Made by a program: the position numbers and the translations under genes. Source: Heterohyrax brucei (lineage: Eukaryota; Chordata; Mammalia; Hyracoidea; Procaviidae). From it: 64,000 bases of DNA. The stretch covers positions 5,001 to 69,000 of the forward strand of contig CM053143.1 of assembly GCA_028571685.1 (NCBI GenBank). Direction: 5' to 3'. Shown in pieces: positions 13,724-64,000 of this stretch (position 1 is the stretch's first letter; each line of letters opens with the position of its first letter). A model generated the notes under the pieces. The model saw only the letters and a program-made list of their open reading frames with translations, was not told where the DNA came from and did no database searches.

Positions 13724-16700
13724 TTATCGTAGAGGTCTCATACAGTATTTGTCCTTTTGTCGCTGACTACTTTCACTGAACATAATATCTTCCAGTTGAA
13801 ACCAGGTTAGGAGATGTTTCTTGGAATCATCGTTATTCTTTATCATTGCATAGTGCTCCATTGAATATATGTACCATAGTTTACCTATCCATTCTTCTAT
13901 TGTTGGGCATCTGGATTGATTCCATCTCTTTGCTATCGTGGACTGTGCTACGATAAATATTCTGGTGCATGTGTCCGTTGGTATGACAGGCCTTGATTCT
14001 GTAGGATATATTCCAAGTAGTGGAATGACTGGGTCAAATGGTATATCGATATCCATTTTGTTAAGGAAGCGCCAGATTGCCTTCCAAAGAGGTTGGACCG
14101 TTTTTGAACCCCACCAACAGTGTAGGAGGGATCCACTTTCTCCACAGCCTCTCCAGCATTTGTTGTTTTGTGTTTTCTGGATCATGGCCAATCTTGATGG
14201 GGTGAGATGGTATCTCATTGTTGTCTTGATTTGAATTTCTTTGATAACTAAAGATCGTAAACATGTCCGCATGTATTTTTTGGCTGCCTGGATCTCCTCT
14301 TTAGTGAAGTGTGTATCCATCTCCTTTGCCCATCGCTTAATTGGATGGTTTATCTTCTTCTTATTGATATTTTGTAGTATCTTATAGATTATGGAGATCA
14401 GGCATCAGTCCAACATAGAGTTGCCAGATATTTTTTCCCATTCTGTGGGTGTTCATTTAATTCTATTAATATAAAGTCTTTGGATGAGTAAAAGTATTTG
14501 ATTCTTAATAGTTCCCATTTATCTATTTTCTCTTCTGTTGATTGAGGTTTCTTTGACAGATTTTGAAGTCTGTCCTCATTGTGAATTAAAACTTCCATTG
14601 TTGTTCCTACCTTTTCTTGGATGGGCTTTATCGTTTTAGGTTTGATATCTAGGTCTTTTATCCAGTTGGAGTTGCTTTTTGTATAAGGTGTAAGATATGG
14701 ATCTTGATTCAGTGTATTGCAGATGGATAACCAATTTTGCTGGCACCATTTGTTGAAGACTGTTTTTACCCCAGTTTAATGTCTTAGGACCTTTGTCGAA
14801 TATCAACTGATCATAGGCAGATGGTGTCATCTCTGGGGTCTCAATTCTGTTCCATTGATCGATCTGTCTGTTCTTGTACCAGTACCAGGCTGTTTTGACC
14901 ATTGTGGCAGTGTAGTATGTTCTAAGGTCGGGTAATGAGAGGCCTCCCAGTGTGTTCTTCTTCTTCAGTAGTACCATACTTATCCAGGGCTTCTTCCCTT
15001 TTCAAACAAAATTGGTGATTTGTTTCTCCATCTCATTAAAAAATGATGCTGGAACTTGTATTGGGATTGCATTATATAAATAAATTGCTTTGGGTAAAAT
15101 AGACATTTTCACAATGTTAAGTCTTCCTATCCATGAGCAGGGTAGGTTTTTCCATTTATCTAATTCTCTCTTAGTTTCTTGTAGTAAGGGCTTGTAGTTC
15201 TCTTTGTAAAGGTCTGTTGTTTCTCTGGTTAGATTAATTCTTAGGTACTTTATCTTCGTAGGGGGTATCATAAATGGTATTGATTTGATAATTTCCTCCT
15301 TAACAGTCTCGTTGATGGTATAAGGGAAACCTACTGATTTTCTTATGTTTATCTTGTATCCTGAGACTTTGCTGAACTGTTCTATCAGTTTGAGTAGCTT
15401 ACTTATAGATTCCTTGGGGTTCTCTGCATATACAATCATATAATCTGCAAACAGAGAGATTTTAACTTCCTCTTTGCCGATGCAGATGCCCTTTATTTCT
15501 TCGTCTTGTCTAATTGCTCCGGCTAGAACTTCTAGCACAATGTTGAATAGGACAGGTGACAGTGGGCATCCTTGTCTAGTTCCTGATCTCAAGGGAAAGT
15601 CTTTCAGTCTCTCTCCATTCAGGATGATGTGGGCAATTGGCTTTGTATAAATGACCCTTACTGTGTTGAGGAATTTGCCATCTATGCCCATTTTGCTAAG
15701 AGTTTTTAGCATGAATGGGTGTTGCACTTTATCCAATGCCTTTTCTGCTTCAATGGACAAAACAGGTGATCCTTGTCTTTTGTGTTATTTATGTGGTGAA
15801 TCACATTAACTGTTTTCCTGATGTTGAACCAGCCTTGCATCCCTGGTATGAATCCCACTTGGTCATGATGGATTATTTTCTTGATATGTTGTTGTATTCT
15901 ATTGGCGAGAGTTTTGTTGAAGATTTTGGGATCTAGGTTCATGAGTGATATTGGTCTGTACTTCTCTTTCTTTCTTGGGTCTTTCCCTGGCTTAGGTATC
16001 AGGGTTATGCTGGCTTCCTGGAACGAGTTTGGGAGTACTTCATCCCTTTCTATACCGTGAAATACTTTCAGTAGTATTGGAGATAACTCTTCTCTAAATG
16101 TTTGGTAGAATTCTGCAGTGAAGCCATCTGGACCCGGACTTTTTTGGGTGGGCAGTGTTTTGATGACCTTTTCAATCTCTTCCTTTGTAATGGATTACTA
16201 AGTTGTTCTGCTTCATGTTGTGATAATTTGGGTAGATGGTACGAGTCAAAGAATTGTTCCATTGCCCTAGGTTTTCATATTTGTTAGAGTACAGTCTTTC
16301 CTAGTCTTCTGTTATGATAGTTTTCATATCTATTGCAACTGTGGTGTCAACCCCCCCCTCATTTCTAATTTGGGTTATTTGTTTCCTTTCCTGCTTTTCT
16401 TTAGTAGTAAGTTCAGCCAGTGGTTTGTCAATTTTGTTGATCTTCTCCAAAAACCTGCTTTTGGTCTTTTCAATGTTTTTGGTTGTTTTTCTGTTCTTTA
16501 ATTGATTTAGCTCTACTCTAATCATTATAATCTCATTTCTTCTGGTGCCTGAGGGATTCTCCTGTTGTTCTCTTTCTACTTGTTCAAGCTGTAGGGTTAG
16601 TTCCTTTACTTGGTTTCTTTCTTCCTTCCAGATGTGTGCATTTATGGAGATAAACAGACCTCTGAGCACTGCTTTGGCTGTATCCCATAGGTTCTGGTAG

Positions 16701-17724: not shown

Positions 17725-17979
17725 ATGATATTAAAAAGAGGGATGTACTACAGTTGTTATAGTCCTTCCAGATGGAGAGGAAGATGACAAGATTGGTAGT
17801 AATTAAAATTAGGTTCATATATAATAAACTATATATATATAATATAATATATATAATATATAATAAACTATATAATAAACTATATATGAACCTAATTTTA
17901 ATTACTACCAATCTTGTCATCTTCCTCTCCATCTGGAAGGACTATAACAACTGTAGTACATCCCTCTTTTTAATATCAT
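17725..17979. repeat. Perfect 99-bp inverted repeat with AT-rich spacer
   Basis: The left arm 17725-17823 and right arm 17881-17979 are exact reverse complements as far as I can check base by base. They are separated by a 57-bp A/T-only-like spacer rich in 'aataaactatata'. Both arms are the L1 inter-ORF segment; the other L1 copies (for example 35790-35880 and 50250-50345) have it only once. The pair would form a very stable hairpin. Confidence 0.93.
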
Positions 17980-23356: not shown

Positions 23357-23389
23357 TGTTTCAGGGCCTGGGGCTGGCCCCTCCTCCCG

Positions 23390-27180: not shown

Positions 27181-27266
27181 AGGATCACCTCCCTGCTCCA
27201 CTATAAAGGGAGTTTCTCTGGAGTATGGCTTTTCCCACCCTTAATCCTTTCATCCTGCAAGAAAAG
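27180..27266 (+). repeat. MaLR LTR fragment
   Basis: The text 'gatcacctccctgc' and 'ataaagggagtttctctgga' matches the interior of the LTR at 41800-42324 (antisense there). The junction to old L1 falls at a shared 'cctagg', consistent with a microhomology deletion of the LTR start and the adjoining old L1. Confidence 0.75.
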
Positions 27267-28754: not shown

Positions 28755-29285
28755 TGACAATTACATTTGTGTACTCATCCTAGAGAAAGCACTACATATC
28801 TCACTGCTGAGTATCGCTATGGTCACCTTTGAAGTACTCCTCTTCAGAAGCTATGCACTGACACCAACACTTAGTCCATCCTTCAAAGCAATTCTAGAAC
28901 TCTTTTTCTGGAATGGCCATCAGAGCTGTCACTGGGTTACCCTTGATGTCCAGAATACCATCCAAATGTCTTCTTGTCCATGTTTCCTTTATTTTCACTG
29001 GAGGCCAGATCAGGTGAGTAGGAAGGGTGTCCAATACAGTTATTTGTTTACTAGCTAAAAACTCCATCACAGACAATTATTGAGTGAAGTTCTTGAGCTT
29101 GCTACCACACCACCATGCACAATGGCCATTCCAAAAGGAGTTGCAAAATTGCTTTGAAGGGTGGACGAGGCACTGACATTGGTGATGACTTCCCAAGGGG
29201 AGTACCCTGAAGGTAATCATAGTGATATTGAGCAAGTGAGGTATGTAGCACTCAGAACAATTAAGTTCATGGACTTCATTGTCAG
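28755..29285. mobile_element. Fold-back mariner-like element 1
   Basis: Two long arms (about 28755-28925 and 29110-29285) are diverged inverted repeats of each other. Each contains 'gctacata(t/c)ctca' and 'caccttga/cag' type text, followed by 'gccagtgcctagtccaccct'-like text. Antisense of the left arm encodes a degraded end of a mariner-type transposase (frame 28894-29076: KQITVLDTLPTHL). The insertion point in the RTE is next to TA. The central part differs from the arms. Confidence 0.7.
28894..29076 (-). pseudogene. Mariner-type transposase C-terminal scrap
   Basis: The 60-codon frame carries FLASKQITVLDTLPTHLIWP, recognisable against the better copy at 29601-29843 as the stretch around the third catalytic aspartate (the P-Y-S-x-D-L-A region), which here is corrupted to THLIWP. 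It ends with ALMAIPEKEF. It has no catalytic domain and is part of the fold-back element. Confidence 0.6.
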
Positions 29286-29504
29286 ATCTTATATGCAAAG
29301 GCATTCAAGTGTGTGGATCCTAACCAATTACAGATAACATTGTTAAAAATGGGAATTCCAGAACTCTTAATGTGATCATGAAGAACCTGTATATAGACGA
29401 ATGGGCAGTGGTTCATGAAAAGCATGTATTAAGGTTTTATCATTTCAACCATACTTATTCAGTGTGCTGAGCAAATCATCTGAGAAGCTGTACTATACAA
29501 GGAC

Positions 29505-30052
29505 TGCCAATTAAGTTCACAAACTCATCCTAGAAAAAGTGCTACATACCTCATTGCTCAGCATCACTATGGTTACCTTCACAATACTCCCCTTGCGAAG
29601 CTATGCACCCATGCCAGTGCCTAGTCTGCCCTTCAAGCAATTTTCAAACTCTTTCTCTGCAATGGCCATCAGAGCTGTTGTTGTATTACACTTAATGTCC
29701 TGAGTGCCATCAAAATATCTTCCTTTCAGTATTTCCTTTAACTTCAGGTAAAGAAAATAGCCATTGGAGGCCAGATCAGATGAGTAGGGATGTTGTTCCA
29801 ATACAGTTACTTGTGTACTGGCTAAAATCTCCCCCACAGACAACCATCCAATTAAGTTTGTGGACTTGCCCCCGTGTCACTGTACACAATGCCTAGTCTG
29901 GAGTTTCAAAGTTGCATTGAAAGGTGGACTAGGCACTGATGTCAGTGCATAGCTTTCCAAGGGAAGCACTTCAAAAATGACGATAGCCATATTGAACAAT
30001 GAGGTATGGAGCACTTCCAACAATAAAATTTGTGGACTTGTCAGATCTCCTG
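29505..30052. mobile_element. Fold-back mariner-like element 2
   Basis: Same architecture as the element at 28755. The left arm is about 29505-29665 ('ccaattaagttcacaaactc', 'gtgctacatacctcattgct') and the right arm about 29890-30052, a diverged reverse complement ('aatgaggtatggagcacttc', 'aataaaatttgtggactt'). It is inserted in the same RTE copy and also flanked by TA. Confidence 0.7.
29601..29843 (-). pseudogene. Mariner-type transposase C-terminal fragment
   Basis: The 80-codon frame reads VGEILASTQVTVLEQHPYSS followed by DLASNGYFLYLKLKEILKGR. This fits the end of a Tc1/mariner DDD transposase: a PYSxDLA block holding the third aspartate, then an N-x-x-F block, then a conserved KxIL-KGR-FD stretch. 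The first two catalytic aspartates and the DNA-binding domain are absent. A source element elsewhere would have had to mobilise it. Confidence 0.7.
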
Positions 30053-36077: not shown

Positions 36078-39000
36078 ATGGCAGCAGTGAACACATACCT
36101 ATCAGTAATTAAATTGAATGTGAATGGACTGAATGCTCCAGTAAAGAGACACCGAATTTCATCTTGGATCAAAAGACACGACCCATCCATATGTTGTCTA
36201 CAAGAAACTCACTTGAGACCTAAAGACAGGAACAAACTGAAAATTAAAGGATGGAAGAATATATATCAAGCTAACAATGAACAAAGAAGAGCAGGGGTGG
36301 CAATTCTAATGTGAGACAAAACCAATTTTAATGTCAAATCCAGCATCATGGACAAAGATGGACACTATTTATTGCTGAAAGGTTCAGTACACAAGCAAGT
36401 CTTAACTATATTAAATAGTTATGCACCTAATGTCAGAGCACCTAAATATGTCAAAGAAACACTGACTACGCTCAAAAGAGAGTTAGATGACTCCACAATA
36501 ATAGTGGGAGACTTTAACACTCCACTCTCATTACTAGACAGATCATCTAGAAAAAAGCTCATTAAGGATACAGAAGAACTCATTGACACAATTAACAAAC
36601 TAAACCTCATTGTGTATACAGAACTTTCCACCCATCAGCAGACAACTACACCTTCTTCTCCACTGCACATGGAACATTCTCCAGAATTGACCACGTGATA
36701 GGACATAATGCAATGCTCAACAAAATCCATACCACTGAATTACTGCAAAGCATCTTCTCGGATCATAAAGCCATAAAAGTTGAAATCAATAGCAGAAAAA
36801 GCACAGACAGAAAGTGGAACTCTTGGAAACTGAACAACATCTTGCTCAAAAAAACATGGGTTATAGAGGAAATCAAGGATGAATTAAAGAAATTCATGGA
36901 TTCCAATGAGAACGAAAACACTTCCTACCAGAACCTATGGGATACAGCCAAAGCAGTGTTCAGAGGTCTGTTTATCTCCATAAATGCACACATCGGGAAG
37001 GAAGAAAGAAACCAAATCAAGGAACTAACTCTACAGCTTGAATAAGTAGAAAGAGAACAACAGAGGAACCCCTCGGGCACTGGAAGAAATGAGATCATAA
37101 AGATTAGAGCAGAGCTAAATGAATTAGAGGATAGAAAAACAATTGAAAAAATTGAAAAGACCAAAAGCCAGTTTTTTGAAAAGATCAACAAAATTGATAA
37201 ACCACTGGCTAAACTTACTAAAGAAAGGCAGGAAAGGAAACAAATAACCCAAATTAGAAATGAGAGGGGAGTTGTCATCACAGATGCAACAGAAATCAAA
37301 AATATCATAACAGAATACTATGAAAGACTGTACCGTAACAAATTTGAAAACCTAGGGGAAATGGACCAATTCCTTGATTCACACCACCTACCCAAATTAT
37401 CACAACGTGAAGCAGAACAACTTAATAAACCCATCACAAAGGAAGAGATTGAAAAGGTGATCAAAACACTGCCAACCAAAAAAAGTCCAGGCCGAGATGG
37501 CTTCACGGCAGAATGCTACCAAGCATTTAGAGAAGAGTTATCGCCCATACTACTTAGACTATTTCACAGTGTAGAAAGGGATGGAGTACTCCCAAACTCA
37601 TTCTATGAAGCGAGCATAACCCTGATACCTAAGCCGGGGAAAGATCCAACAAAGACAGAGAACTACAGACCGATATCACTTATGAACCTAGATCCCAAAA
37701 TCTTCAACAAAATTCTTGCCAACAGAATACAACAACATGTCAAGAAAATAATCCATCATGACCAAGTGGGATTCATACCAGGGATGCAAGGCTGGTTCAA
37801 CATCAGGAAAACAATTAATGTGATTAACCACATAAATAACACAAAAGACAAAGATCACCTGATTTTGCCCATCGATGCCGAAAAGGCATTTGATAAAGTC
37901 CAACACCCATTCATGCTAAAAACTCTTAGCAAAATGGGCATAGACGGCAAATTCCTCAACACAATAAGGGCCATTTATACAAAGCCAATTGCCCACATCA
38001 GCCTGAATGGAGAGAGACTGAAAGACTTTCCACTGAGATCAGGAACTAGACAAGGATGCCCACTGTCACCTCTCCTATTCAACATTGTGCTAGAAGTTCT
38101 AGCCAGAGCAATTCGACAAGACGAAGAAATAAAGGGCATCTGCATCGGCAAAGAGGATGTTAAAATCTCCCTGTTTGCAGATTATGTGATTGTATATGCA
38201 GAGAACCCCAAGGAATCTATAAGTAAGCTACTCAAACTGATAGAAGAGTTTAGCAAAGTCTCAGGATACAAGATAACATCAGTAAATCAGTAGGTTTCCT
38301 TCATACCGTCAACAAAACTGTTAAGGAGGAAATTATTAAGTCAATACCATTTATGATAGCCCCTAAGAAGATAAAGTACCTAGGAATTAATCTAACCAGA
38401 GAAACAGCAGACCTTTACAAAGAGAACTACAAGTCCTTACTACAAGAAACTAAGAGAGACTTAGATAAATGGAAAAACCTACCCTGCTCATGGATAGGAA
38501 GACTACTTAACATTGTGAAAATGTCTATTTTACCCAAAGCAATTTATTTATATAATACAATCCCAATACAAGTTCCAGCATCATTTTTTAATGAGATGGA
38601 GAAACAAATCACCAATTTTGTTTGGAAAGGGAAGAAGCCCTGGATATGTAAGGTACTACTAAAGAAGAAGAACAACTGGGAGGCCTCTCATTACCCGACC
38701 TTAGAACATACTACACTGCCATAGTGGTCAAAACAGCCTGGTACAGGTACAAGAACAGACAGATCGATCAATGGAACAGAATTCAGACCCCAGAGATGAC
38801 ACCATCTGCCTATGAACAGTTGATATTTGACAAAGGCCCTAAGACATTAAACTGGGGTAAAAACAGTATCTTCAACAAATGGTGCTGGCAAAATTGGTTA
38901 TCCATCTGCAATACACTGAATCAAGATCCATATCTTACACCTTATGCAAAAACCAACTCCAACTGGATAAAAGACCTAAATATCAAACCTAAAACGAGAA

Positions 39001-40002: not shown

Positions 40003-40502
40003 TGTTTTAGTCAGCTAGGCTGCTCTAACAGAAATACCACAGAGTGGATGGCTTTAACAAAGAAAGATTTATTCTTACACAGTCCGGTAGTTTGCAAGTC
40101 CATATTCAGGGTGTCCACTCCAGGGAAAGACTTTCCCCTCGTCGGCTCTGGAGAAAAGTCCGATATTGCATCAGTCATTGTCCAGGGAGTGTCCTAACGC
40201 AAGAACCTCTGGTCTGAACGACGCGCTCTGCTCCCGGTGCTGCTTGCTTGGTGGTAGCGAGGTTCTCAAATTGTCCTTGGTTCTTTCTCCTTTTATTCCT
40301 TGCAAGCTAAAAGCATTAAGGGTGGGGCAAGCCATACTCCAGGGAAACTTCCCCCATAGCAGGAATTCACAGCCCCACCCTAATCCTTTAACATACAGGT
40401 TAGCAAAACCACACAATGGAGGACAGTCCCAAGATACTGGGAACCATATCCCAGCCACGTGGCTGCACACATTTTTAGGGGGACACAATTCAAACCATGA
40501 CA
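40003..40502 (-). repeat. Solo MaLR LTR in the L1 3' UTR
   Basis: A complete LTR in antisense, from TGTTTTAGTCAGCTAGGC to CAAACCATGACA. The 5-bp target duplication GATAG lies at 39998-40002 and 40503-40507. It is closely related to the LTRs at 9580 and 11036 (500 bp). It is younger than its host L1. Confidence 0.95.
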
Positions 40503-47662: not shown

Positions 47663-48704
47663 TTCAAAATGACCCAAACCTCACTAAATATAGAAGTAGT
47701 AATGGTGGAGGTGGAGTCAAGCTGGCGGAGTAAGCACACATCTCCTTATATCCCTCTGGAAACCAAGACTGAATTGATAATCAGACGGAGTCTTCTGGTC
47801 ACCTAATCAGCCCCAGGACACGGCACAGGGCTGTTAATTGGGACTTCATACCATTGATCGAAAATCCTCCTCTCTTACGCTCACCCCCGTGCCTGGCTAT
47901 CCCTGGCTCTCATGGACTGAAGGAAAATGCACCATTTTGACTTTTTTTTTTCCTCTGTCTTGGCCAGCAGGCAGAGCAGGGTCTTGCCTAGCGGCTAGAC
48001 TCAGACACACTGCTGGGGGGACAGGCAGACCAAATTCCCATATTTTGAGAGCCAGGCTTGGGACTCTGTTAATCTAGCCACTTTGAGCCTGTCATTTTAT
48101 ATCTGCCTCAGGGGCGTTTTTACGGAGTTTCGCAGTCACTATGCAGGACACCATGTTGATAAGGAGATTCTAGTGGGACCTCATTCTTAACCTGACAGCC
48201 AGTGCCTCTAAACAGGACAGTGCTTCTCTGACAGAAAAGCAGTAATTTACCTAGTACCACCTGATTTGGGGGTCCTCCAACAGAATCAGAAGAATCACTA
48301 CCTCTCAGCACCTTTAGCCTTCTGTCTGCCGCCTGTGTGGAGGGCGCCATCTTGGATACAGCAGCCACAGCTGGTTCTAATTCTTAGGTTGGGAGCCAGA
48401 GTCTTCCCACAGGAGAGTACTTTTGTATCAGAAAAGCACTACTCTCCGCAGTGTCGTCTACGGCTAGGCCCTGTCAGCAGAGGCCAACAGGGCAGTAGCA
48501 TTGCTGTATTCTGAACTAGTATGTATCATCTGGGGTTGGATATAGTGGCACTTACTTTGCCAGTTGAGAAGAGGGACCTCTACCCCTGAAAACCTAACTG
48601 ACTGGTGAAGTGGTCAGATATCTTTGGCTTCACATTTTAAGACAACCTAGAGAATCATCTGCAGTCAATCCTCACAGTACCTCTTCCAGTGTCTACATAC
48701 TCAC

Positions 48705-49659
48705 ATGGGTTGAAAAAGCAACAGACACTTGTGGCACACAAGAAATCAGCCATGGCTTCGGAAGGCTGCCAAACAAAGCAACCAAGGAGTTTTCCAGATG
48801 AAGAAACTTTTATGAAAGCATCAGAAAGTGAATATAAAATGATTATATACTGAGCCCTTCTAGACCTTATACAAAATGCGGGAGAACAAAATAAAAAATT
48901 AAGCAAGATGTTCAATCTGATGAAACACTAGTACTCTGGAATCCAACAGATCAAGAATGAAATCAAAGACACAAAAACTTCAATGCAAAGCCAAGAAAAC
49001 AGAATGGAACAAATAGAAAAAAGAATTTCGGACTTGGAAGACAGAGCTACTGAGGGCAGTGCCTATGAGGAGAAATCAGAAAAAAGAATAAAGAAAAATG
49101 AAGAAACATTAAGAAGCATGTGGGACTCTATTAAGAGGAACCACCTTCGATTAATCAGAGTCTCTGAACAGAGTGAGACATATGAGAACACAGAGAATAT
49201 CGTTGCTGAGCTGCTGACAGAAAACTTCCCAGAAATCCTGAAGGAAGAGAATACAGACATCTCAGATGCATATCGTATGCCACCCACTATAGATCACAAA
49301 AGAAAGACTCAAAGACATATTATAATCAAGCTCGACAAAATGAAACATAAGCAGCAACTCTTAAAGGCAGCAAGATACCAAGCAAAGGAATATTCAGAGG
49401 GAAACCCTGCAGGCTCTCTTCAGATTTCTCAGCAGAATCCATGCTGGCACGGAGACAGTGGCATGACACATTCAAAGCCTTGAAGGAGAAGAACTTCCAA
49501 CCAAGAATTCTATATCCTGCAGAACTATCTCTCAAATACGAAAATGAAATGAAGACATTCCCAGATCAACAGAAATTCAGAGACTTTGTGAAAACCAAAC
49601 CCAAACTACAAGAAATGTTGAAAAAAGTTCTTGGCTCTGGCTTAGAAGAACAAAACCAC
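48705..49659 (+). pseudogene. L1 ORF1, frameshifted
   Basis: The start region at 48705 is already broken (ATG-GGT-TGA). The coiled coil is at about 48900-49080, then a long open piece 48983-49483 (MQSQENRMEQIEKRISDLED, then SIKRNHLRLIRVSEQSETYE). The one-base deletion at about 49390 converts the reading to AARYQAKEYSEGN, identical in position and context to the deletion at about 19165. The correct frame resumes at 49441 with MLARRQWHDTFKALKEKNFQ and runs to the LTR. Confidence 0.9.
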
Positions 49660-50116
49660 GGTCCTAGTCACCAGGTACTGCTCTAATGGAAAATAGCACG
49701 AGTGGAAGGTGTCATGAGGAGAAGCTTTCACTGACAGAATCTGGTAAGCTGCAAATCCATTTGTAGGTTGTAAGTCCATTCAGAGTGACAAATCATCACA
49801 GTCCAGTAGGCGGAGTCCAAATCCAGTGAGAGCATCTCGGCACAGGAAACTCGGGTCGAAAGGACATGCTCGACTCTCGGTGTTTCTCTCTCGATGGTAT
49901 GAGGTTCTCAACTTCCTCTGCTCACTTCTCTCCCTTATATTCCACAAACTTGTAGCTTGTGTCCTGCCTCACTAACACAACTACAAACGAGTCTCCATCA
50001 TCAGTATCGCAGAGGCAGGATTCACAACACATGGGAGGAAGGGCACCATGTTGGAACGCCAAACCAATTCCAATCAACACATACACTTTGGGGGGGACAC
50101 AATTCAATCCATGACA
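49660..50116 (-). repeat. MaLR-type LTR inside the L1 inter-ORF spacer
   Basis: 457 bp, antisense to its L1, ending CAATCCATGACA, with the 5-bp duplication ACCAC at 49655-49659 and 50117-50121. The first two bases are mutated (GG for TG). Sequence, length, orientation and target site equal the LTR at 18110-18566 and differ from the other LTR subtypes in the window. Confidence 0.93.
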
Positions 50117-50538
50117 ACCACTAACTTTATATTTTAGAACAACGTTACTACTCAAAACTCTACTCAGTTAAGGAAGGCTCCAAAGCCAATCACAGCTTTG
50201 ATAGGGAAAGAAGCAATCCAGTGATCATCATGAATACTGTGGTGTCATCATATTAAAAAGAGGGATGCACTACAGTTATTATAGTCCTTCCAGATGGAGA
50301 GGAAGATAATAAGACTGGTAGTAATTAAAATTGGGTATATATATAATTTCTTAAGGGGGATCATAGGGGCAGCTGTAAAGCCCAACAAAGATCATTTCAA
50401 GAAATGTAACACAGGAGTCTCAACAACCACAAAACCAGCTGTTAAAAAAGTGAAAAATCAACTCACACAAAAGAACATCCCAGAACAGACTAATAACAAA
50501 AACAGAGAAAATATCAACATAAAAATAAACACATCACA

Positions 50539-52806
50539 ATGGCAACACTGAACACATACCTATCAATAATTACATTGAATGTGAATGGACTGAATGCTCC
50601 AGTAAAGAGACATTGAGTGACATCTTGGATCAAAAGACATGACCCATCCATATGTTGTCTACAAGAAACTCACTTGAGACCTAAAGACAGGAACAAACTG
50701 AAAATTAAAGGTTGGAGGGAGATATATCAAGCTAACAGTGAACAAAGAAGAGCCGGGGTGGCAATTCTAATCTCAGACAAAATCAATTTTCATGTCAAAT
50801 CCACCATCGTGGACAAAGATGGACACTATTGATTGCTGAAAGGTTCAGTACACAAGCAAGACCTAACTATATTAAGTATTTCTGCACGTAATATCGGAGC
50901 ACCTAAATACATCGAAGAAACACTTACTACACTCATAGGAGAGTTAGACGACTCCACCATAACAGTGGGAGATTTCAACATTCCACTCTCAATACTAGAC
51001 AGATCATCTAGAAAAAAACTCAGTAAAGATACAGAAGACCTCATTGCCACAATTAACCAACTAAACCTCATTGATATATACAGAACTTTCCACCCTTCAA
51101 CAGACAACTACACCTTCTTCTCCAGTGCACATGGAGCATTCTCAAGAATTGACCATGTGATAGGCCACAATGCAATGCTCCACAAAATCCATACCACTGA
51201 ATTACTGCAAAGCATTTTCTCAGATCATGAAGCCATCCAAGTTGAAATCAATAGCAGAAAAATCATAAACAGAAAGTGGAACTCTTGGAAATGGAACAAC
51301 ATCTTGCTCAAAACAACACGGCTTATACAGGAAATCTAGGTTGAATTAAAGAAATTCATGGATTCAAACGAGAACAAAAACACTTCCTACCAGAACCTAT
51401 GGGATACAGCCAAAGCAGTGCTCAGAGGTCTGATTATCTCCATAAATGCACACATCTGGAAGGAAGAAAGAAACCAAATCAAGGAACTAACCCTACAGCT
51501 TGAACAAGTAGAAAGAGAACAACAGGGAAACCCCTCAGGCACCAGAAGAAACAAGATTATAAAGATTACAGCAGAGCTAAATCAGAGAACAGAAAAACAA
51601 CCGAAAACATTGAAAAGACCAAAAGCTGGTTTTTGGAGAAGATGAACAAAATGAACAAACCACTGGCTGGACTTACTAAAGAAAAGCAGGAAAGGAAACA
51701 AAGAACCCAAATTAGAAATGAGATGGGGGTTGTCACCACAGATGCAACAGAAATCAAAACTATCATAACACAATACTATGAAAGACTGTACTCTAACAAA
51801 TTTGAAAATCTAGGGGAAATAAACCAATTCCTTCACTCGTACCATCTACCCAAATTATCACAACGTGAAGCAGAACAACTTCATAAATCCATTACAAAGG
51901 AAGAGACTAAAAAGGTCATCAAAACACTGCCCACCCAAAAAAGTCCGGGTCCAGATGGCTTCACTGCAGAATTCTACCAAGCATTTAGAGAAGAGTTATC
52001 TCCAATACTACTGAAACTATTTCACGGGATAGGAAGGGATGGAGTACTCCCAAACTCGTTCCAGGAAGCCAGCATAACCCTGATACCTAATCCAGGGAAA
52101 GATCCAACAAAAAAAGAGAACTGCAGACCGATATCACTCATGAATCTAGATGCCAAACTCTTCAACAAAATTCTCGCCAATAGAATACAACAACATATCA
52201 AGAAAATAATCCATCATGACCAAGTGGGCTTCATACCAGGGATGCAAGGCTGGTTCAACATCAGAAAAACAAGTAATGTGATTCACCACATAAATAACAC
52301 AAAAGACAAGGATCACCTGATTTTGTCCATTGATGCAGAAAAGGCATTGGATAAAGTGCAACACCCATTCATGCTAAAAACTCTTAGCAAAATGGGCATG
52401 GATGGCAAATTCCTCAACACAATAAGGGCCATTTCTACAAAGCCCACATCATCCTGAATGGAGAAAGACTGAAAGACTTTCCCTTGAGAGCAGGAGCTAG
52501 ACAAGGATGCCCACTCTCACCTCTTCCATTCAACATTGTGCTAGCAGTTTTAGCCAGAGCAATTAGACAAGACCAAGAAATAAAGGGCATCTGCATTGGC
52601 AAAGAGGAAGTTAAAATCTCCCTGTGGGCAGATGATATGATTGTATATCCAGAGAATCCCAAGGAATCTGTAAGTAAACTACTCAAACTGATAGAAGAGT
52701 TCAGCAGAGTCTCAGGATACAAGATAAACATAAGTAAATCAGTAGGATTCCTTTATACCAACAATGAGACTGTTAACGAAGAAATTATGAAATCAATACC
52801 ATTTTC
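50539..52806 (+). pseudogene. L1 ORF2, truncated after the RT catalytic site
   Basis: Starts ATGGCAACACTGAACAC at 50539. The endonuclease (50617-51340) has CCLQETHLRPKD and FSDHEAIQVE. The RT (51633-52806) has [35 protein letters not shown] and the catalytic LWADDMIVY, the only copy here that keeps both aspartates. The frame is broken by an early stop (50611-50616), a stop at 51337, a frameshift near 51600 and a deletion near 52440. Everything after [12 protein letters not shown] is replaced by the inverted array. Confidence 0.9.
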
Positions 52807-55800
52807 GATTGTAGATGGCTTTCTTGGAAACAGACCTTTTCACAAAGTTAAGTCTTCCTATCTCCATGAACAAGGTAGATTTTTCCATTTATCTAAGTGT
52901 CTCTTAGATTCTTCTAGTTAGGGCTTAGAGTTCTCTGTGTGAAACTCTGTAGTTTCTGTGTATAGATTAATTCCTAGGTCCTTTCTGTTCTTAATATCTG
53001 TGGTAAATCGTATGGAACGTACTATTTCTCCAATCACTGGCTCGTTGTTAGTATGAAGGAATCCTACTGATTTACTGTGGTTTCTCATGTATCCTGAGAA
53101 TTGGGTTTACTTAGAGATTCCTTGCGATGCTAAGCATTTACAATTGTATCATCTGCTAACAGGGCGAAAATGATGCTACAACTTGTACTCGGAGTATCTT
53201 AGAGAAGTGGATGGCTTTCAGGGAAAGAGACCTTTTCCCAATGTTAAGTCTTCCTGTCTCCATAAACAACATAGATTTTTCCATTTATCTAAGTGTCTCT
53301 TAGTTTCTTACAGTTAGGGCTTGGAGTTCTCTGTGTAATACTGTAGTTTCTGTGTATAGATTAATTCCTAGGTCCTTTCTATTCTTAATAACTGTGGTAG
53401 ATCGTATGGAACTGTCAATTTCTCCAACCACTATCTTGTTGTTAGTGTCTCTTGTATCCTGAGAATTTGCTGATGTCTCCTATCAGTTAGAGGTTTTACT
53501 TAGAGATTCCTTGGGAATCTAAGCACTTACAATTGTATCATCTTGTAACAGTGGAAAAACAAACCTGGAACTTGTACTGGGACTGTCTTATAGAAGTGGA
53601 TTGCTTTTGGGGAAAGAGAAGTTTTCACAATGTGAAATCTTCCTATCTTCATGAACAGCGTAGATTTTTCCATTTCTCTAAGTCTCTCTTAGTTTCTTGT
53701 AGTTCAGACCGATAGATCTCTCTGCAAAAGTCTGTTGTTTTCTGGTTACATTAGTTCCTAGATACTTCCGTTTATGGATTCTATGGTAAATGGTATGGAT
53801 GTGATGATTTCTCTGTTCACAATCTTGTTACTGTAAATCCTACTGATTTACTTAGGATTCTCTTGTATCCTGAGAATTTGCTGATCTCTCCTATCAGGTA
53901 GAGGGTTTACTTAGAGATTCCTTATGGTTCTCGGCACGTACAAATTCATCATCGACTAACAGGGAATAAAATGACGCTGGAGGTTGTACTCTGAGTGCCT
54001 TATAGAAGTGGATTGCTTTCGGGGAAAGAGACTGTTTCACAACGTTAAGTCTTCCTACCTCCATGGAGAGCGTAGATTTTTCCTTTTATCTACGAGTCTC
54101 ATAGTTTCTTTTAGTTAGATCTTGGAGTTCTCTGTGTAAAACTCTGTAGTTTCTGTGGTTAGATTAATTCCTAGGTACTTTCTCTTGTGAGTATCTGCTG
54201 TAAATCGTTTGGAACTGATAATTTCTACAGTCACTGTCTTGTTGTTAGTGTCAAAGAATCCTACTGATTTACTTAGGTTTCTCATGTAACCTGAGAATTG
54301 GCTGATCTCTCTTATCAGTTAGAGGGTTTACATAGAGCTTCCTTGCAATTCTAAGCATTTACAATCGTATCATCTGCTAACAAGACAAAAATGATGCTAG
54401 AACTTGTACTCGGAGCACCTTAGAGAAGTGGATTGCTTTTGGGGAAAGAGACATTTTCACAATGTTAAGGCTTCCTATCCATGGGAAGAGCGTAGATTTT
54501 TCCATTTATCTAAGTCTCTCTTAGATTGTTGTAGTTAGGGCTAAGAGTTCTCACTGTAAAACTCCATACTTTCTGGGGTTGGAGTCATTCCTCGGTACAT
54601 TCTCCTGTTCATATCTGTGGTAAATCTTGTGGAACTGATGATTTCTCCATTCATTTTCTCGTTGTTGGTGTCAAGGAATCCTATTCATTTACTTAGGTTT
54701 TCTTGTAGATTCCTTGGAATTCTCACCATGTACAATCGTTTCATCGACTTACAGGGCAAAAATGATGCTGGAACTTGTACTTGGAGTGCCTTATAGAAGT
54801 CGATGGCTTTCGTGGAAAGAGAACTTTTCACAAAGTTAAGTCTTCCTATCTCCATCAACAATGTAGATTTTTCCATTTATCTAAGTGTCTCTTAGTTTTT
54901 TCGAGTCAGGGCTTGGAGTTCTCTGTGTAAAATTCTGTCGTTTCTGGGATGAGATTAATTCCTAGGTCCTTTCTGTTCTTAATATCTGTGGTAAATCGTA
55001 TGGAACTGACGATTTCTCCAATCACTGTCTGGTTGTTATTGTCAAGGAATCCTACTGATTTACTTAGGTTTCTCATGTATCCTGAGAATTGGCTGATCTC
55101 TCTTATCAGTTAGAGGGTTTACTTAGACATTCCTTGCGATTCTAAGCATTTACAATCGTATCATCTGCTAACAGGGCAAAAATGATGCTAGATCTTATAC
55201 TCGGAGTGTCTTAGAGAAGTGGATTGCTTTCGGGGAAAGAGACTTTTTCACAATGTGAAATCTTCCTATCTCTATGAACAGCATAGATTTTTCCTTTATC
55301 TAAGTCTCTCTTAGTTTCTTGTAGTTCAGACCGGTAGATCTGTCTGTAAAAGTCTGTTGTTTCTCTGGTTACATTGGCTCCTAGGTACTTTCTCTTTGGG
55401 GGTTCTATGGTAAATGGTGTGGATCTGATGATTCGTCTGTTCACAAACTTGTTACCATGATTCCTACTGATTTATTTAGGTTTCTCTTGTATCCTGAGAA
55501 TTTGCTGATCTCTTCTATCACTTAGAGGGTTTACTGAGAGATTCCTTGCAATTCGAAGCATGTACATTCAAATCATCTGCTAACAGCACAAAAATGAAGC
55601 TGCAAATTCTACTGGGTCTGTCTTATAGAAATCGATTGCTTTCTTCAAAAGATACCTTTTCACAAATTCAGTCTTCCTATCTCCTTGAACAGTGTAGACT
55701 TTTCCATTTCTCTAAGTCTCTCTTAGTTTCTTGTAGCTAGTACTGGCAGTTCTCTGAATAAACTGTGTTGCTTCTCTGGTTAGATTAGTTCCTAGGTACT

Positions 55801-58376
55801 TTCGTTTTGGGGGTCTATGGTAAATAGTATGGATGTGATGATTTCTCTGTTCACAATCTCGTTACTGTAAATCCTACTGATTTACTTAGGTTTCTATTGT
55901 ATCCTGAAATTTGCTGATCTCTCCTATCAGGTAGAGGGTTTACTTAGAGATTTCTTACGATTCTCAGCATGTACAAATTCATTATTGACTAACAGGGAAA
56001 AAATGACGCTGGAACTTGTACTCGGAGTGCCTTATAGAAGTGGATTGCTTTTGGGGAAAGAGACCGTTTCGCAATGTTAAGTCTTCCTACCTCCATGCAT
56101 TAGAGCTTGGAGTTTTCCGTGTAAAACTCTGTAGTTTCCATGGTTAGATTAATTCCTAGGTACTTTCTCTGTGAATATCTGTTGTAAATCGTAAGGAACT
56201 GATGATTTCTCCAATCACTGGCTCATTGTTCGTGTCAAGGAATCCTACTGATTTACTTAGGTTTCTCATGTAACCTGAGAATTGGCTGATCTCTTTTATC
56301 AGTTAGAGGGTTTACATAGAGCTTCCTTGCGATTCTAAGCATTTACAATCGTATCATCTGCTAACAAGGCAAAAATGATGCTAGAACTTGTACTCGGAGC
56401 ACCTTAGAGAAGTGGATTGCTTTCAGGGAAAGAGACCTTTGCACCATGTTAACTCTTCATATCTCCATGAACAGCGTAGATTTTTCCATTTATCTAAGTC
56501 TCTCTTAGTTTCTTTTTGTTAGGGCTTGGAGTTCTCTGTGTAAAACTCTGTAGTTTCTGGGGTTCGATGAATTCCTAGGTACTTTCTCTTGTTCATATCT
56601 CTGGTAAATGGTATCAAGTGGATGATTTCTCCAATCATTGTCTCGTTGTTAGTATCAAGGAATGCTGCTGATTTATTTAGGTTTCTCAAGTGTCCTGAGA
56701 ATTGGTTGATCTCTCATATCAGTTCGAGGGTTTACTTAGAGATTCCTTGTGATTCTAAGCATTTACAATTGTATCATCTGCTAACAATGCAAAAATAAAT
56801 CTGGAACTTGTACCAGGACTGTCTTATAGAAGTGGATTGCTTTTGGGGAAAGAGACATTTTCACAATGTTAAGGCTTCCTATTCATGGGAAGAACGTAGA
56901 TTTTTCCATTTATCTAAGTCTGTCTTAGATTGTTGTAGTTAGTGCTTAGAGCTCTCATTGTAAAACTCCATAGTTTCTGGGGTTGGATTCATTCTCAGTA
57001 CATTCTCCTGTTCATATCTGTGGTAAATCTTGTGGAACTGATGATTTCTCTGTTCATTTTCTCATTGTTGGTGTCAAGGAATCCTATTCATTTACTTAGG
57101 TTTTCTTGTAGATTCCTTGGAATTCTCACCATGTACAATCACTTCATCGCCTAACAGGGCAAAAGTGATGCTGGAACTTGTACTCGGAGTGCCTTATAGA
57201 ATGCGATGGCTTTCTTGGAAATAGACCTTTTCACAAAGTTAAGTCTTCCTATCTCCATCAACAATGTAGATTTTTCCACTTATCTAAGTGTCTCTTAGTT
57301 TCTTCTAAATAGGGCTTGGAGTTCTCTGTGTGAAACTCTGTAGTTTCTGTGTATAGATTAATTCCTAGGTCCTTTCTGTTCTTAATATCGGTGCTAAATC
57401 GCATGGAACTGACGATTTCTCCAATCACTGTCTCATTGTTATTGTGAGGGAATCCTACTGATTTACTTAGATTTCTCTTGTATCCTGAGAATTTGCTGAT
57501 CTCTCCTATCAGTTAGAGAGTTTAGTTCAAGATTCCTTCGGATTCTCGGCATGTACAATAGTGTCATCTTCTAACAGCACAAAAAGGATGCTGAGACGTG
57601 TACTGGGACTGACATAAGTGGGTTGCTTTCGGTGAAAGAGACCTTTTCCCAATGTTAAGTCTTCCTATCTCCATGAACAACATAGATTTTTCCATTTATC
57701 TAAGTCTCTCTTAGTTTCTACTAGTAAGGATTTGAAGTTCTCTGTGTAAAACACTGTAGTTTCTGTGGATAGATTAATTCCTAGGTCCTTTCCGTTCTTA
57801 ATATCTGTGGTAAATCGTATGGAACTGTCGATTTCTCCAATCACTGTCTTGTTGTTAGTGTCTCTTGCATCCTGAGAATTTGCTGATGTCTCATATCAGT
57901 TAGAGGCTTTACTTAGAGACTCCTTGGGAATCTAAGCACTTGACATCGTGTCATCTGCTAACAGCGCAAGAATGAACCTGGAACTTGTACTGGTAGTGTC
58001 TTATAGAGGTGGATTGCTTTCGGGGAAAGTCCTTTTCACAATGAGAAATCTTCCTATCTCCATGAACAGCGTAGATTTTTCCACTAATCTAAGTCTCTCT
58101 TAGTTTCTTGGGGTTAGGACTGCTCGTTCTCTCTGGAAAGGTCTGTTGTTTCTTTGAGGAGATTAATTCCTAGGTACTTTTTCTTTTAGGATCTACTGTA
58201 AATGGTATGGATCTGATGATTTCTCCATTCACAATCTCATTACTGTAAATCCTAATGATGTACTTAGGTTTCTCTTGTATCCTGAGGATTTGCTGATCCC
58301 TCCTATCAGAGGTTTACTTATAAATTCCTTGGGATTGTTAGCATGTACAATAGTGTCATCTGCTAACAGGGCAAAA
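52807..58376 (-). repeat. Higher-order part of the array
   Basis: Unit types recur in order. Type E starts at about 52807 (partial), 54762 and 57166. Type A, with a deletion leaving 'tgttagtgtctcttg', is at 53170 and 57586. Type B, ending in 'acaaattcat' before the junction, is at 53557 and 55594. The 371-bp type D, with 'ggttttcttgtagattcctt', is at 54391 and 56795. This gives a higher-order repeat of about 2.0-2.4 kb. It is incomplete and edited in places: the unit at 56003 lost about 48 bp. Confidence 0.75.
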
Positions 58377-60943
58377 ATGATGCTGGAACTTCTCCTGGGA
58401 CTGCCTTATAGAAGTAGATTGTTTTCGGGGAAAGAAACGTTTTCATAGTGTTAAGTTTTTCTATCTTCATGAACAGTGTAGATTTTTCCATTTTTCTAAG
58501 TTTCTCTTAGTTTCTTGTCGTTAGGATTAGTAGTTGTGTCTGTAAAAGTCTGTTGTTTCTCTGGTTAGATTAATTCCGAGGAACTTTCTCTTTTTAGGAT
58601 CTATGGTAAATGCTATGGATCTGATGATTACTCTATTCACAATCTTGGTACTGTAAAGGAATCCTATTAGGTTCACGTAGGTTTCTCTTGTAGCTAGAGA
58701 ATTTGCTGATCTCAGTTAGAGGGATTACTTATAGATTCCTTGGGATTTTCAGTATGTACAACTATATCACCTGCTAAGAGGGCGAAAATGCTGCTGGAAT
58801 TTGTACTGGGACTGCCTTATAAAAGCAGATTGTTTTCGGGGAAAGAGACCTTTTCACAACGTTAAGTCTTCCTATCTCCATGAACAGCATATATTTCTCC
58901 ATTTTTCTAAGTCTCTCTTAGTTTCTTGTAGTTAGGACTGATAGTTCTCTCTGTAAAATTCTGTTGTTTCTCTGTTTAGATTAATTCCCAGGTACTTTTT
59001 TCTTTGAGGATCTACGGTAAATGGTATGGATCTGATGATTTCTCTGTTCACAATCTCATTAGTGTAAATCCTACTGATTTACTTAGGTTTCTCTTGTAAT
59101 CCTGAGAATTTGCTGATCTCACCTATCACTTAGAGGCTTTACTTATAAATTCCTTGGGATTCCCAGCATGAACAATCGTTTCATCCGCTAACAGGGCAAA
59201 AATGATGCTGGAACTTGTACTGGGAGTGCCTTATAGAAGTAGATTGCTTTCGCGGAAAGAGATCTTTGCACAATGTTAAATCTTTCTATCTCCATGTACA
59301 GCGTAGATTTTCCATTTATCTGAGTCTCTCTTACTTTCTTGTAGTAGGACTGGCATTTCTCTCTGTGAAAATCTATTGTTTCTCGAGTTAGATTAATTCC
59401 TAGGTTCTTTCTGTTTTTAGGATCTATGGTAAATGGCAGAGGTCTGATGATTTCTCCGTTCACAATCTCCTTACTGTAAAGGAATCCTAGTGATTTACTT
59501 AAGTTTCTCTGATATCCTGAGAATTTGCTGATCTCAGTTATAAGGTTAACTTATACATTCCTTCCAATTCTTGGCATGTACAATCGTATCATCTGCTAAC
59601 AGGGCAAAAATGTTACTTGAACTTGTACCAGGACTGCCTTACAGAAGTAGATTGCATTCCGTGAAAGAGACCTTTTCACAATGTTAAGTCTTCATATCTC
59701 CAAGCTTAGGGTACGGTTTTCAATTTATCTAACTATCTCTTAGGTTCTTGTAGTAAGGTTTGGTATTTCTCTCTGTAAAATTTGTTAATTCCCTAGGTAC
59801 ATTCTCTTTTTGGAATCTATGGTTAATGGTATGAATTTGATGATTTCTCCAATCCCAACTTCATTACTCTAAAGGAATCCTACTGATTTACTTAGGTTTG
59901 TCTCGTATCCTGAGAATTTCCTGATCTCTCCTATTTGTAAGAGGGTTTTCTTATAGATTCCTTGGGATTCTCGGCACGTACAATCGTATCATCGGCTAAC
60001 AGGGAAAAATGATACTAGTACTTGTACTGGGACTGCCTTATAGATAAGCAGATTGCTTTCAGGGAAAGAGACCTTGTCAATGTTAAGTCTGCATATCTCC
60101 ATGAGCATGGTAGGTTTTTCCATTTATCTAAGTCTCTTTGTTTCTCATAGTAGGCGCTGGTAATTCTCTCTCTAAACGTCTGTTGTTTGTCTTGTGAGAT
60201 TAATTTCTGGGTCCTTTCTCTTAGGGTATGTTGTGAATAGTATGGATCTGATGATTTGACAGTCTCGTTGTTGCTGTCAAGGAACTCTACCGAGTTCCAT
60301 AGGTTTCTCTTTTGTCCCCAGACTTTGCTGAACTCTCCTATCACTTAGAGTATTTACTTATAGATTCCTTGGGATTCTCAGTCTGTACAATCATATCATC
60401 TACTAACAGGGAAATGTGATGTTGGAACTTGTACTGGGACTGGTAAAAATAGTTTGCTTTGGGTAAAAGAGACCTTTTTACAATGTTAGTTCTTACCTCC
60501 ATAAGCAGGGTAGGTTTTTGCATTTATCTAAGTTTCTGTTAGTTTCTTGTAGTAAGGGCTGGTAGTTCTCGTTGTAAAAGTGTGTCATTTCTCTGGTTAG
60601 AATAATTTCTAGATAGTTTCTCTTGTTAGAGTCAATGATAAATGGTATGGATCTGATGATTTCTCCATCCACAGTCCTATTGTTGGTGTCAAGAGTCCTA
60701 TTGATATACGTAGGTTTGTCTTGTGTCCTGGGAATTTGCTAATCTAGCCTATCAGTTAGAGGGTTTCCTTATAGATTACTTGGGATTCTCAGCATGTACA
60801 ATCGTATCATCTGCTAACAGGAGAAAAATGATGCTGGAACTTGTACTGGGACTGCCTTATACAAGTCGATTCCTTTGGAGGAAAGAGACCTTTTCACAAT
60901 ATTAAGTCTTCCTATCTCCACGAGCAGGCTGGATTTTTCCACA
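52807..60943 (-). repeat. Satellite-like tandem array derived from L1 ORF2
   Basis: Twenty start anchors (text like 'gatgctggaacttgtact') occur at about 53170, 53557, 53971, 54391, 54762, 55182, 55594, 56003, 56375, 56795, 57166, 57586, 57971, 58377, 58788, 59202, 59609, 60009, 60416 and 60828, with a partial unit at each end. Spacing is 371-420 bp, mean about 403. Each unit is antisense and corresponds to about 15046-15448 of the L1 at 12717, that is ORF2 from just before the FADD catalytic site to the VPASF text about 130 codons later. No unit keeps an open frame. All units face the same way, which excludes separate L1 insertions. Confidence 0.95.
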
Positions 60944-61122
60944 GTAGAAGCTGCCTGTCGTGGATTGACTTCTGTTCCCCCGGTGGTTGAAACTCTTCAG
61001 AACTCTTTTTAGGACCTGGTCCAATAAGTTCAGGGCCTCAGAGAAGCTCCATCCTAGCACTGTCCAGTGGGATGGTTGCGTTCGTCCAGTCTGTGGGTTT
61101 TCCCACTCAAAGGCAAAGATAT
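60944..61122 (-). pseudogene. Class I (gamma-type) retroviral RT scrap
   Basis: The minus-strand frame shows FAFEWENPQTGR, then HWTVLGWSF, then LNLLDQVLKRVL. This is the conserved part of gammaretrovirus-like RT before the YxDD site: a FAFEW block, a T-W-T-x-L-P-Q-G-F block (here corrupted to GWSF) and an L-F-x-x-x-L block. It is only about 60 residues long, flanked by the array and the RTE. No other part of this retrovirus is present. Confidence 0.6.
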
Positions 61123-62797
61123 ACAAACCTGATGCACACCTTTCCTGACTTTAAACTGAGCACTGTCCCCTTTTCCTGCTCAAATTTCTGCCTCCTGATC
61201 CATTAACAGATCCCTCACAAGCACAATTCAGTGTGCTGGCCTTCCGATTTCCTGCACTGAGATCCATAATTTGTTAGGATCTACACAGTCAAATGAGTTT
61301 GCATAGTCAGTAAAACACCAGTAAACATCTGGTATTCTCTGCTTTCAACCCAATCCACCTGACATCAGTAATGATATCCTCGGTTGCACGTCCTCTTCTG
61401 AATCCAGCCAGAATTTCTGGCAGTGCCTTGTCAGTATACTGCTGCAGTCCCTTTTGAATGATCTTCAGCAGAATTTTACTTGAGTGTGATATTTGTGATG
61501 TTGTTCGATAATTTCTGCATTCAATTGGATCACTTTTCTTGGAAATAGGTCTAAATGTGGATCTCTTCCAGTCAGTTGCTCAGATAGCTGTCTTCCAAAT
61601 TGATTTGCACAGACCAGTGAGTACCTCCAGCACTGTATCTGTTTGCTGAAACATCTCAGTTGATTGACTCCCTGGAGCCTTGTTTTTCACCAATACCTTC
61701 AGTGCAGCCTGAAGGTCTTTCAGTACCATCCATTCTGGATCATATGTCACCTCTTGAAATGGTTAAATGTTGACCAGTTCTTTTGGTATAATGACACTGT
61801 GTATTCTCTCTGTCTTCAGCTGCCACTTTCTTCATTGTTTAGTATTTTCCACATAGAAATCTACTGAAACTCAAGGCTTGCATTTTTCTTCAGTTCTTTC
61901 ACCTTGAGAAATGCAGTGTGTTCTTCCCATTTGGTTTCTATCTCCAGCTCTTTGCATGTGTCATCTTAATATTTTGCTTTGTTTTCTTTGGCTGACCTTT
62001 GAAATTTTCTGTTTAGTTCTTTGGCTTTATTATTTCTTCTTTTTTGCTTTAGCTACTCGACATACAAGTTCAAGTCTCATAGTCTCTTATGGCATTTATT
62101 TTGGTCTTTTCTTTCTTTCCTGTGTTTTTAATGGTCTCTAGCTTTCTGCATGTACAATGTCCTTGATGTTATTCCAAGTTCACCTGGTCTTCAGTCATAA
62201 GTGTTCAGTGTATCGAATCTGTTCCTGAGATATCTCTGCACTCAGGCGATGTCTCTAAACTCAAGACTCTACTCTGGCTTTCATGGACTTCTCATTTTCT
62301 TCAGGTTCCGTTTCAACTTGCATATGAGCAATTGATGGTCTGTTCCACAGTCACCACCTGACCAGCCCCTGGCTGATAGTATTGAGCTGTCCCATCATGT
62401 GTTTCCATAGATGTAGTGGATTTGACACCTATATATTCCATCTGGTGAGGTCCACAGGTATAGTCAATGTTTATATTGGTGAGAAACAGTATTTACAATG
62501 AAGTCATGTATTTTACATCACTTCGGGCTCCAAGGCTGTATTTCCCAACTAGCAGTTCTTCATGGTCTCTAACTTTCACAGTCCAATCATCAGTAATTAT
62601 CAGTGCATCCTGATCACATATTTGATTTATTTCAGACTGCAGAATTTGGTAAAAACCTTCAGTTTCTTCATGTTTGGCCTTATAGTTGTTGGTGGGTAAA
62701 TTTAATAATAGTCATATTAACTGGCCTTCCTTGTAGGCAGATGATATTATTCTATCATTGACAACATTGTGTTTCAGGAAAGACCTTGCAGCGTTCT
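61123..62797 (-). mobile_element. RTE (BovB-clade) LINE, internal part
   Basis: Antisense RTE from the RT region ('acacctttcctgactttaaa', 'cacgtcctcttctgaatcca', 'ctgctgcagtcccttttgaa') to the endonuclease region ('ttgcatatgagcaattgatg', 'atcagtaattatcagtgcat', 'gactgcagaatttggtaaaa'). It lacks the 3' end and is cut at 62797 by an L1 tail. No frame is usable. Confidence 0.85.
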
Positions 62798-64000
62798 TTT
62801 TTTTTCATTTATTTTTATTTTTGTTTTTAATAATTTTTCATTTAATATAACTGAGTGAAAATGTACATTCTCGTATACATTTACATACCCACCTGTATGC
62901 AGCTTCCACTCTTCTCCCTGCCCGGTGACAGCACACTATTCCTCTCTGCTCCATACATGTCTCGTTCTCCCAACAGTCTCTTTTTAACCTCCTCTCCACC
63001 CACTCTCCTTCCTCCAGCCAGAGGTCAGCAGGATGACATCCTATAGATGAATAGAATCGTAAAGTGAATCCAATACATAGTCACTACATCGCCAAGACCA
63101 ATCTATTCCTGTTCGAAGCGTGGACCTTCGATATGATTTATCATCAAGGGCAGCATCAGGGTGAGGGGCCATGCTCCCAGGGGAAACTCGAAACCACTGG
63201 ACCATCAATTGAGGTCTTTTAGTGGGGATCTCAGGGTACACCCCTTTTTATTCTTGTGTTGCTGGTGAGACTCAACTTAGCAAGCTCCATTGCGGCTATC
63301 ACTGGTGGTGGCCGGGCACCATCTGGTTCTTCTGGTCCCAAGTCGACGTAGGCACCCACTCGTGTGGGTCTCTTTGTCTTCTGGGTTGTCTTTCCCCCAT
63401 GTCATTTTGGTCCTTGGTGAGCATCCATTCCTGCTGAGTTGGGACCATTTGCTGTACCCTCAGACGGCAGCTTGGCAGCTTTTAAGACCCCAGATGCCAC
63501 TCACCAACGTGGGGTGCAGAGAGCCCTCTTAGCAAAACGCTGGTTGTGCCAATTGACCTCACTTTCGCCTAAGAGCATGATCCCCTGCCCCCTGCCCCAG
63601 CAACTCTATCCTTGCAATATTGGGTTAAGATGGAAGGAGTACTCATGTTATGTTTAAGTCCACTTAATATTGTTCTTGTTTCTAATGTGTGCTATCACCG
63701 ATTTCACCCAACCACATACCTGACAACTATTTAATCTAAGCCCTCCCCCACTCCCTCCCCTCCCTTGCAGCTGTCAAAGAGTCTTTTCTTCTATACACAA
63801 GTCTGTTTTTGAGTTCTTATCGTAGAGGTCTCATACAATATTTGTTCTTTTGTCGCTGACTACTTTCATTCAACATGTCTTCCAGTTGAAACCAGGTTAG
63901 TAGATGTTTCCTGAAGTCATCATTGTTCTTTATCATTGCATAGTGCTCCATTGAGTATATGTACCATAGTTTAACTGTCCATTCTTCTGTTGTTAGGCTT
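62798..64000 (-). mobile_element. L1 LINE 3' end, continues beyond the window
   Basis: The T-run from about 62798 is the poly-A tail. It is followed by the young-type 3' UTR (about 62850-63840) and the last ORF2 codons (from about 63830, antisense 'tttgtcgctgactactttca'). It runs off the window edge, so the length is unknown. It is inserted in the RTE at 61123-62797. Confidence 0.9.

Follow-up and report, generated by a model that had tools for sequence, protein, structure and literature searches.

A tandem array built from a reverse-transcriptase segment of L1 ORF2, very probably old and decaying, in Heterohyrax brucei

The window analysed here, a stretch of 64,000 nucleotides from Heterohyrax brucei (assembly GCA_028571685.1, contig CM053143.1), holds several pieces of L1 and an 8.1 kb region in which one short segment of L1 ORF2 is repeated head to tail. 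An AfroSINE motif has two matches in the window, each with 3 mismatches (expected 0.00), which fits an afrotherian, and a longer AfroSINE pattern has no match in the window. The features to which we refer are as follows, in window positions.

15039..15454, minus strand: segment corresponding to the array unit in the L1 copy 'L1a'; RVT_1 region, translation ending ...VPASF
38168..38590, plus strand: corresponding segment in a second copy, 'L1b', matched by the unit query
47694..52804, plus strand: left neighbour, 'L1c', the 5' part of an L1 in opposite orientation to the array, 92.8% identical to L1a over 50344-52804
52807..60943, minus strand: the complete array, made up of 21 units of one reverse-transcriptase segment of L1 ORF2, with the sense direction on the minus strand
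52807..53166, minus strand: unit 1, partial at the left end, 360 bp; first aligned base 52828, equal to L1a 15097, with a start near 15080 by extrapolation
53167..58372, minus strand: units 2-14
58373..60004, minus strand: units 15-18, grouped with units 3, 7, 8 and 14
60005..60823, minus strand: units 19-20, branching nearest the L1s and the two most L1a-like units
60824..60943, minus strand: unit 21, partial, 120 bp, stopping at about L1a 15154
60944..61120, no strand assigned: right neighbour, 177 bp, whose only matches to the rest of the window are weak and 25-26 bp long
61121..61708, minus strand: non-L1 LINE fragment, reaching at least 61708 and matching other fragments in the window
62808..64000, minus strand: 3' end of a further antisense L1, which continues past the window edge

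The tandem array at 52807-60943 is confirmed. Comparison of the region with itself by shared 9-mers, over offsets of 100-7000, gave peaks at 411, 800, 1203, 1622, 1993, 2408 bp and on, with 43-111 shared 9-mers per 1000 positions at the 17 listed peaks versus at most 3.2 in the control, a single mononucleotide shuffle. TRF split the array into several overlapping repeats, their periods being 371-420, so that the period of about 403 bp claimed in an earlier sequence-only reading is borne out. That reading had counted about 20 units of about 403 bp; the tandem units stand, and the count is corrected to 19 complete units (u02-u20) and two partial ones (u01 and u21), arranged head to tail, with complete units 370-420 bp long. 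The length of 420 bp is found in four units whose sole length change relative to the majority is +3. When a single unit was used as a query on both strands, the rest of the array was matched on the plus strand only, in line with the claim that all units are head to tail and antisense. Outside the array, the same query (64 kb window, E 1e-5) matched three L1 copies only, at 15.0-15.5, 38.2-38.6 and 52.6-52.7 kb, and at this threshold no second array was found in the window. The AT content of the array is 62%, and both of its ends are mid-unit breaks.

Alignment to L1a near 15 kb, limited to the plus strand, resolves the array into 21 consecutive copies of L1a 15039-15454. Units u01-u20 are 72-80% identical to L1a and L1b (72.5-79.8% to L1a), which bears out the proposed origin from L1 ORF2. 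In the sense direction, the source segment carries the codons of the FADD motif (LFAD..) at its start and VPASF at its end, and part of it is covered by a Pfam RVT_1 match (E 1.9e-16) in the L1a reading frame over 15041-15700. By our own estimate, the segment makes up about 5-6% of an L1. Sixteen of the 20 internal junctions join L1a 15453-15460 to 15039-15044, that is, they lie within 7 bases of the same two positions. In the other four, one side lies further off than these 7 bases (left stop at 15435, twice, or 15445; right start at 15049), which probably reflects clipping of diverged ends in local alignment. The unit boundary described earlier as identical is supported as a common one, and the proposed joining of the FADD codons to the text after VPASF matches the translation of the segment. 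In addition, at 22 positions fixed in at least 85% of the units, the array differs from all L1 rows that have a base at the position. Because the junctions are common and these positions are specific to the array, one founding junction is the best reading, and the suggestion of a single founding tandem event gains further support from the common orientation of the units. A tree of u01-u20, L1a and L1b, with the short L1c and u21 rows left out, splits the array from the two L1s with a support of 100; as these are the only L1s in the tree and are near-identical, the split is weak evidence of a single origin. These sequences are most simply accounted for by one founding junction and subsequent duplication of DNA.

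The same alignments bear on a quite different history, raised together with the original claim, in which each unit is an L1 insertion of its own with its own tail, some twenty independent antisense insertions or fragments having landed side by side in a region that is, in favour of this view, dense in L1 copies. L1 copies produced by retrotransposition normally carry the 3' end of the element and an A tail. No L1 3' end was found in any unit, the alignments containing no L1 sequence below L1a 15038 (towards the 3' end), and no run of A or T of 7 or more occurs anywhere in the array. As 3' ends and A or T runs are absent and the breakpoints are common, separate insertions are excluded; array-specific changes are shared as well, and the common junction alone already contradicts this history, to which we give practically no probability. 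A false expansion of reads during assembly, an error to which repeats are generally prone, is highly improbable, because u01-u20 differ from one another by 8-28% and have indels of their own, features not expected if a single read had been copied.

Mean identity between units is 78.8% (range 71.9-91.9%; u01-u20), and the mean K2P distance over the same segment is 0.252 between units, 0.285 between units and L1a and 0.050 between L1a and L1b. With 0.25 between units versus 0.05 between the two L1s, the array is older than the divergence of L1a and L1b, unless it mutates faster. The textbook substitution rate for mammals is about 2e-9 per site per year, at which a K2P of 0.25 would correspond to some 60 million years. 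These values also qualify the satellite-like reading of the region, which is a single bounded array of 8.1 kb. Head-to-tail units in one orientation, homology to a defined LINE segment and a common junction were all found, as in a LINE-derived tandem repeat; on the other hand, the homogenisation (concerted evolution) that marks satellite DNA proper is lacking, with unit identities spread over 72-92% around the above mean.

When the tree is rooted on L1a, u20 branches first, followed by u19, with moderate supports of 68 and 81. Ten units (u01, u02, u04, u05, u06 and u09-u13; support 100) make up a derived group, which occupies much of the left of the array, while the other group comprises u03, u07, u08 and u14-u18 (support 70). 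Identity to L1a increases rightward (Spearman 0.56, p 0.0097, calculated on 20 non-independent units). Several pairs of distant units are unusually close: u05 and u11 (54387-54757 and 56791-57160) have a deletion of about 48 bp in common and are 92% identical, u02 and u13 have a 26-bp deletion in common and are 88% identical, and u04 and u09 are 92% identical. The closest pairs, u04/u09 and u05/u11, have a K2P of 0.086, versus the overall mean of 0.252. Common indels together with high identity in distant units indicate that some units were re-duplicated later. Distance along the array is weakly related to divergence (Mantel r 0.19, with 182 of 10,000 permutations as high). In a diagonal permutation test, a block pattern was weak over all 20 units (150/5,000) and absent in u01-u14 (1352/5,000); one 2.4 kb block pair is 82% identical, and a regular higher-order repeat is not established.

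The substitutions in the array are rich in transversions, with a ts/tv of 0.80 over all unit pairs and 0.76 between units and L1a, and the fitted kappa is 2.0. Changes private to one unit comprise 103 transitions and 174 transversions, the isolated ones among them 25 and 53. This last ratio differs from that of five pooled L1 pairs (304:261, Fisher p 0.0004) and from that of two older L1 pairs (51:41, p 0.003); in pairwise comparison, older L1 pairs gave 150:137 and 138:134. Out of eleven pairs, six disjoint, hand-picked ones sum to 125 transitions and 130 transversions, and among the remaining five, three are transversion-rich (18:28, 18:24 and 15:29) and two even (47:42 and 45:44). An unusual mutation spectrum as a property of the array was considered and set aside, since private changes omit recurrent transitions and the disjoint pairs are near even. 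The excess of transversions is explained only in part, and no reading is built on it.

On its left, the array meets L1c at about 52805-52807 and starts there mid-unit. L1c itself is broken at 52804 in the RT region, at a position equal to L1a 15272 and therefore inside the source segment of the array. The two sides of this contact are not at the same L1 position, so the contact is not a simple exchange between inverted copies, and the location of the break within the source segment may be a coincidence of position by chance. Twin-priming (5' inversion) was discarded as an origin of this junction by reasoning, the order of sense followed by antisense being the reverse of a 5' inversion. A single L1 split by inversion into L1c and the 3' end at 62.8 kb was also set aside: L1c is 93% and the 3' end 84% identical to L1a, so that they are probably not one element, a comparison that involves different L1 regions and is not decisive. 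On the right, beyond the 177-bp neighbour, lies the LINE fragment at 61121-61708, which we take to be RTE/BovB-like; its RVT_1 match at 61307-61576 is below the Pfam cut-off (25.5 vs 29.6 bits). Next to the array, L1 sequence from beyond 15039-15454 was not found in the array's orientation. With no such sequence at either end, the parent L1 is out of view, and the array may be part of a larger array or of one that was displaced.

The mid-unit breaks at both ends and the lack of a parental flank in array orientation would also suit a different origin, in which the array belongs to a satellite family that is genome-wide and possibly pericentromeric and was transposed to this site as a local outlier, the two ends being the breakpoints of the move. 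This view gains some plausibility from a study which, in its available text, reports that a different repeat forms short L1-flanked tandem arrays in elephants and hyraxes (PMC8421680). We nevertheless consider it unlikely, given that the units are poorly homogenised, that the window holds no second array and that the array contains no CENP-B-box-like site. Allowing at most one mismatch, the number of such sites was 0 in the array and 3 in the window, with 2.8 expected by chance. On this count, a centromeric satellite marked by such a box is not supported; a more divergent box may be present.

No reading frame is open in the array: each of the six frames has 156-184 stops, the average over 100 mononucleotide shuffles being 172. 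Preservation of a reading frame was considered because the length is a multiple of three in 14 of the 19 complete units, and rejected because all frames are filled with stops and indels are mostly not multiples of three (of 57 scored against the majority, 35 have a length of 1 mod 3, 10 of 2 mod 3 and 12 of 0 mod 3). The array might instead act as an antisense store of L1 sequence, for example as a putative piRNA source against L1. On the plus strand, every unit is antisense to L1, and, of 8113 array 25-mers, 53 match one of the three L1 pieces in the window exactly and 734 with at most 2 mismatches, counts that come with no matched control. Against this, the units are no more than 72-80% identical to L1a and L1b, so that the complementarity may be a remnant after decay; a store of this kind appears very unlikely. 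We regard the array as decaying and non-functional and give an antisense RNA role a low probability.

In the account that we favour, a piece of L1 ORF2 of about 416-420 bp would have been joined head to tail once, FADD codons to the text just after VPASF, and the array would then have been enlarged by duplication at the DNA level, presumably through unequal exchange, replication slippage or break-induced replication. Growth would have given at least two unit groups. In the left two thirds, some units would have been duplicated again at a later stage, and the units would then have decayed with little homogenisation. We hold it to be highly probable that the region is such a non-coding, old, LINE-derived tandem array, with one head-to-tail founding, growth at the DNA level and subsequent decay, and most likely it has no sequence-specific function now. 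A more far-reaching reading, which we regard as unlikely, is that the catalytic-core segment of L1 ORF2 seeded an ancient satellite lineage in this host. The 8.1 kb array would then be a relic of that lineage that has survived without homogenisation, and the ages of its units, ordered from right to left, would trace the passage from LINE fragment to satellite. If so, the L1 in opposite orientation, whose break lies within the same segment, would be the trace of a rearrangement brought about by shared sequence. The locus is a clean example, with a boundary on either side, of the turning of a LINE coding segment into a tandem array: its founding junction can still be read, and its most L1-like units lie at one end. 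Should the array prove to be a single locus, with orthologues in related species, both its birth and its slow decay could be dated.

Among afrotherian repeats, the array was compared with TMAsat, described in the available parts of PMC8421680 as centromeric in sirenians and as forming short L1-flanked arrays in elephants and hyraxes. These arrays, of at most 18 units, are flanked by L1 in 9 of 10 cases in the African elephant and 15 of 16 in the Asian elephant, and its authors suggest that TMAsat could be L1 related (PMC8421680). Both TMAsat and the present repeat form tandem arrays with L1 neighbours. By description they are set apart, as the TMAsat monomer is 684-687 bp long with 54.5% AT and, in the same available text, no reported RepBase match (PMC8421680), whereas our units are 370-420 bp long with 62% AT and a clear L1 match. 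The printed CENP-B-like motifs of TMAsat, short motifs rather than the full monomer, fit the array no better than shuffled motifs and lend no support to membership of TMAsat.

Other mammalian satellites share the L1 origin, and the claim that LINE-derived satellites are known in a few mammals agrees with a review which, in the part available, lists L1 ORF2 as the source of PROsat in Phodopus roborovskii and of Pvc 20 in the harbour seal Phoca vitulina concolor (PMC9659126). The available text of a second source also lists PROsat as L1-derived (PMC6947457). PROsat resembles the array in being a mammalian tandem repeat with an L1 ORF2 part and differs, as far as the available description goes, in that only a small region is 88% similar to ORF2, whereas the whole unit of our array is ORF2. 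Pvc 20 is likened to the array by its table entry as L1 ORF2-derived (PMC9659126). The common cetacean satellite is likewise mammalian and derived from L1, and, as described in the available part of the review, its source is the L1 3' end (PMC9659126) and not ORF2. Within the literature on L1- and LINE-derived satellites that was covered, which includes few subscription papers, no description of this ORF2 array was found. Since L1 ORF2-derived mammalian satellites are already listed, the novelty lies in the case and not in the kind, and the array adds one example to the known class of LINE-derived tandem repeats.

Differences between the units of the array at 52807-60943 (antisense, head-to-tail copies of an L1 ORF2 segment, numbered u01 to u21 from the left) are rich in transversions, most so in left-hand pairs such as u01 and u06, which are separated by 26 transversions versus 8 transitions.

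Further repeats and a possible retroviral trace were found in the window:

17725-17979, inverted repeat lying within the 12.7-20.8 kb L1, with 94% self-complementarity across an alignment of 256 bases
9577-10080 and 11033-11535, direct pair of a block of about 504 bp, 97% identical
40003-40502, third copy of this block, inverted relative to the pair (94%)
28773-30048, clustered direct and inverted repeats, 72-82% similarity
23344-23395, minus strand, gag/pro ribosomal frameshift site (Rfam RF01097, 70.4 bits)

Blocks near 18.7, 35.8 and 50.3 kb are related to the inverted repeat, and the Rfam match suggests an endogenous-retrovirus remnant inside the window.

Finally, self-comparison of the window matched two non-L1 LINE fragments, presumably BovB/RTE-like, in opposite orientations (61121-61541 and 27258-27678). 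Their match, which apparently stops at each fragment's own end, reaches 95% identity over 421 bp, compared with 66-80% for the remaining matches between such fragments.
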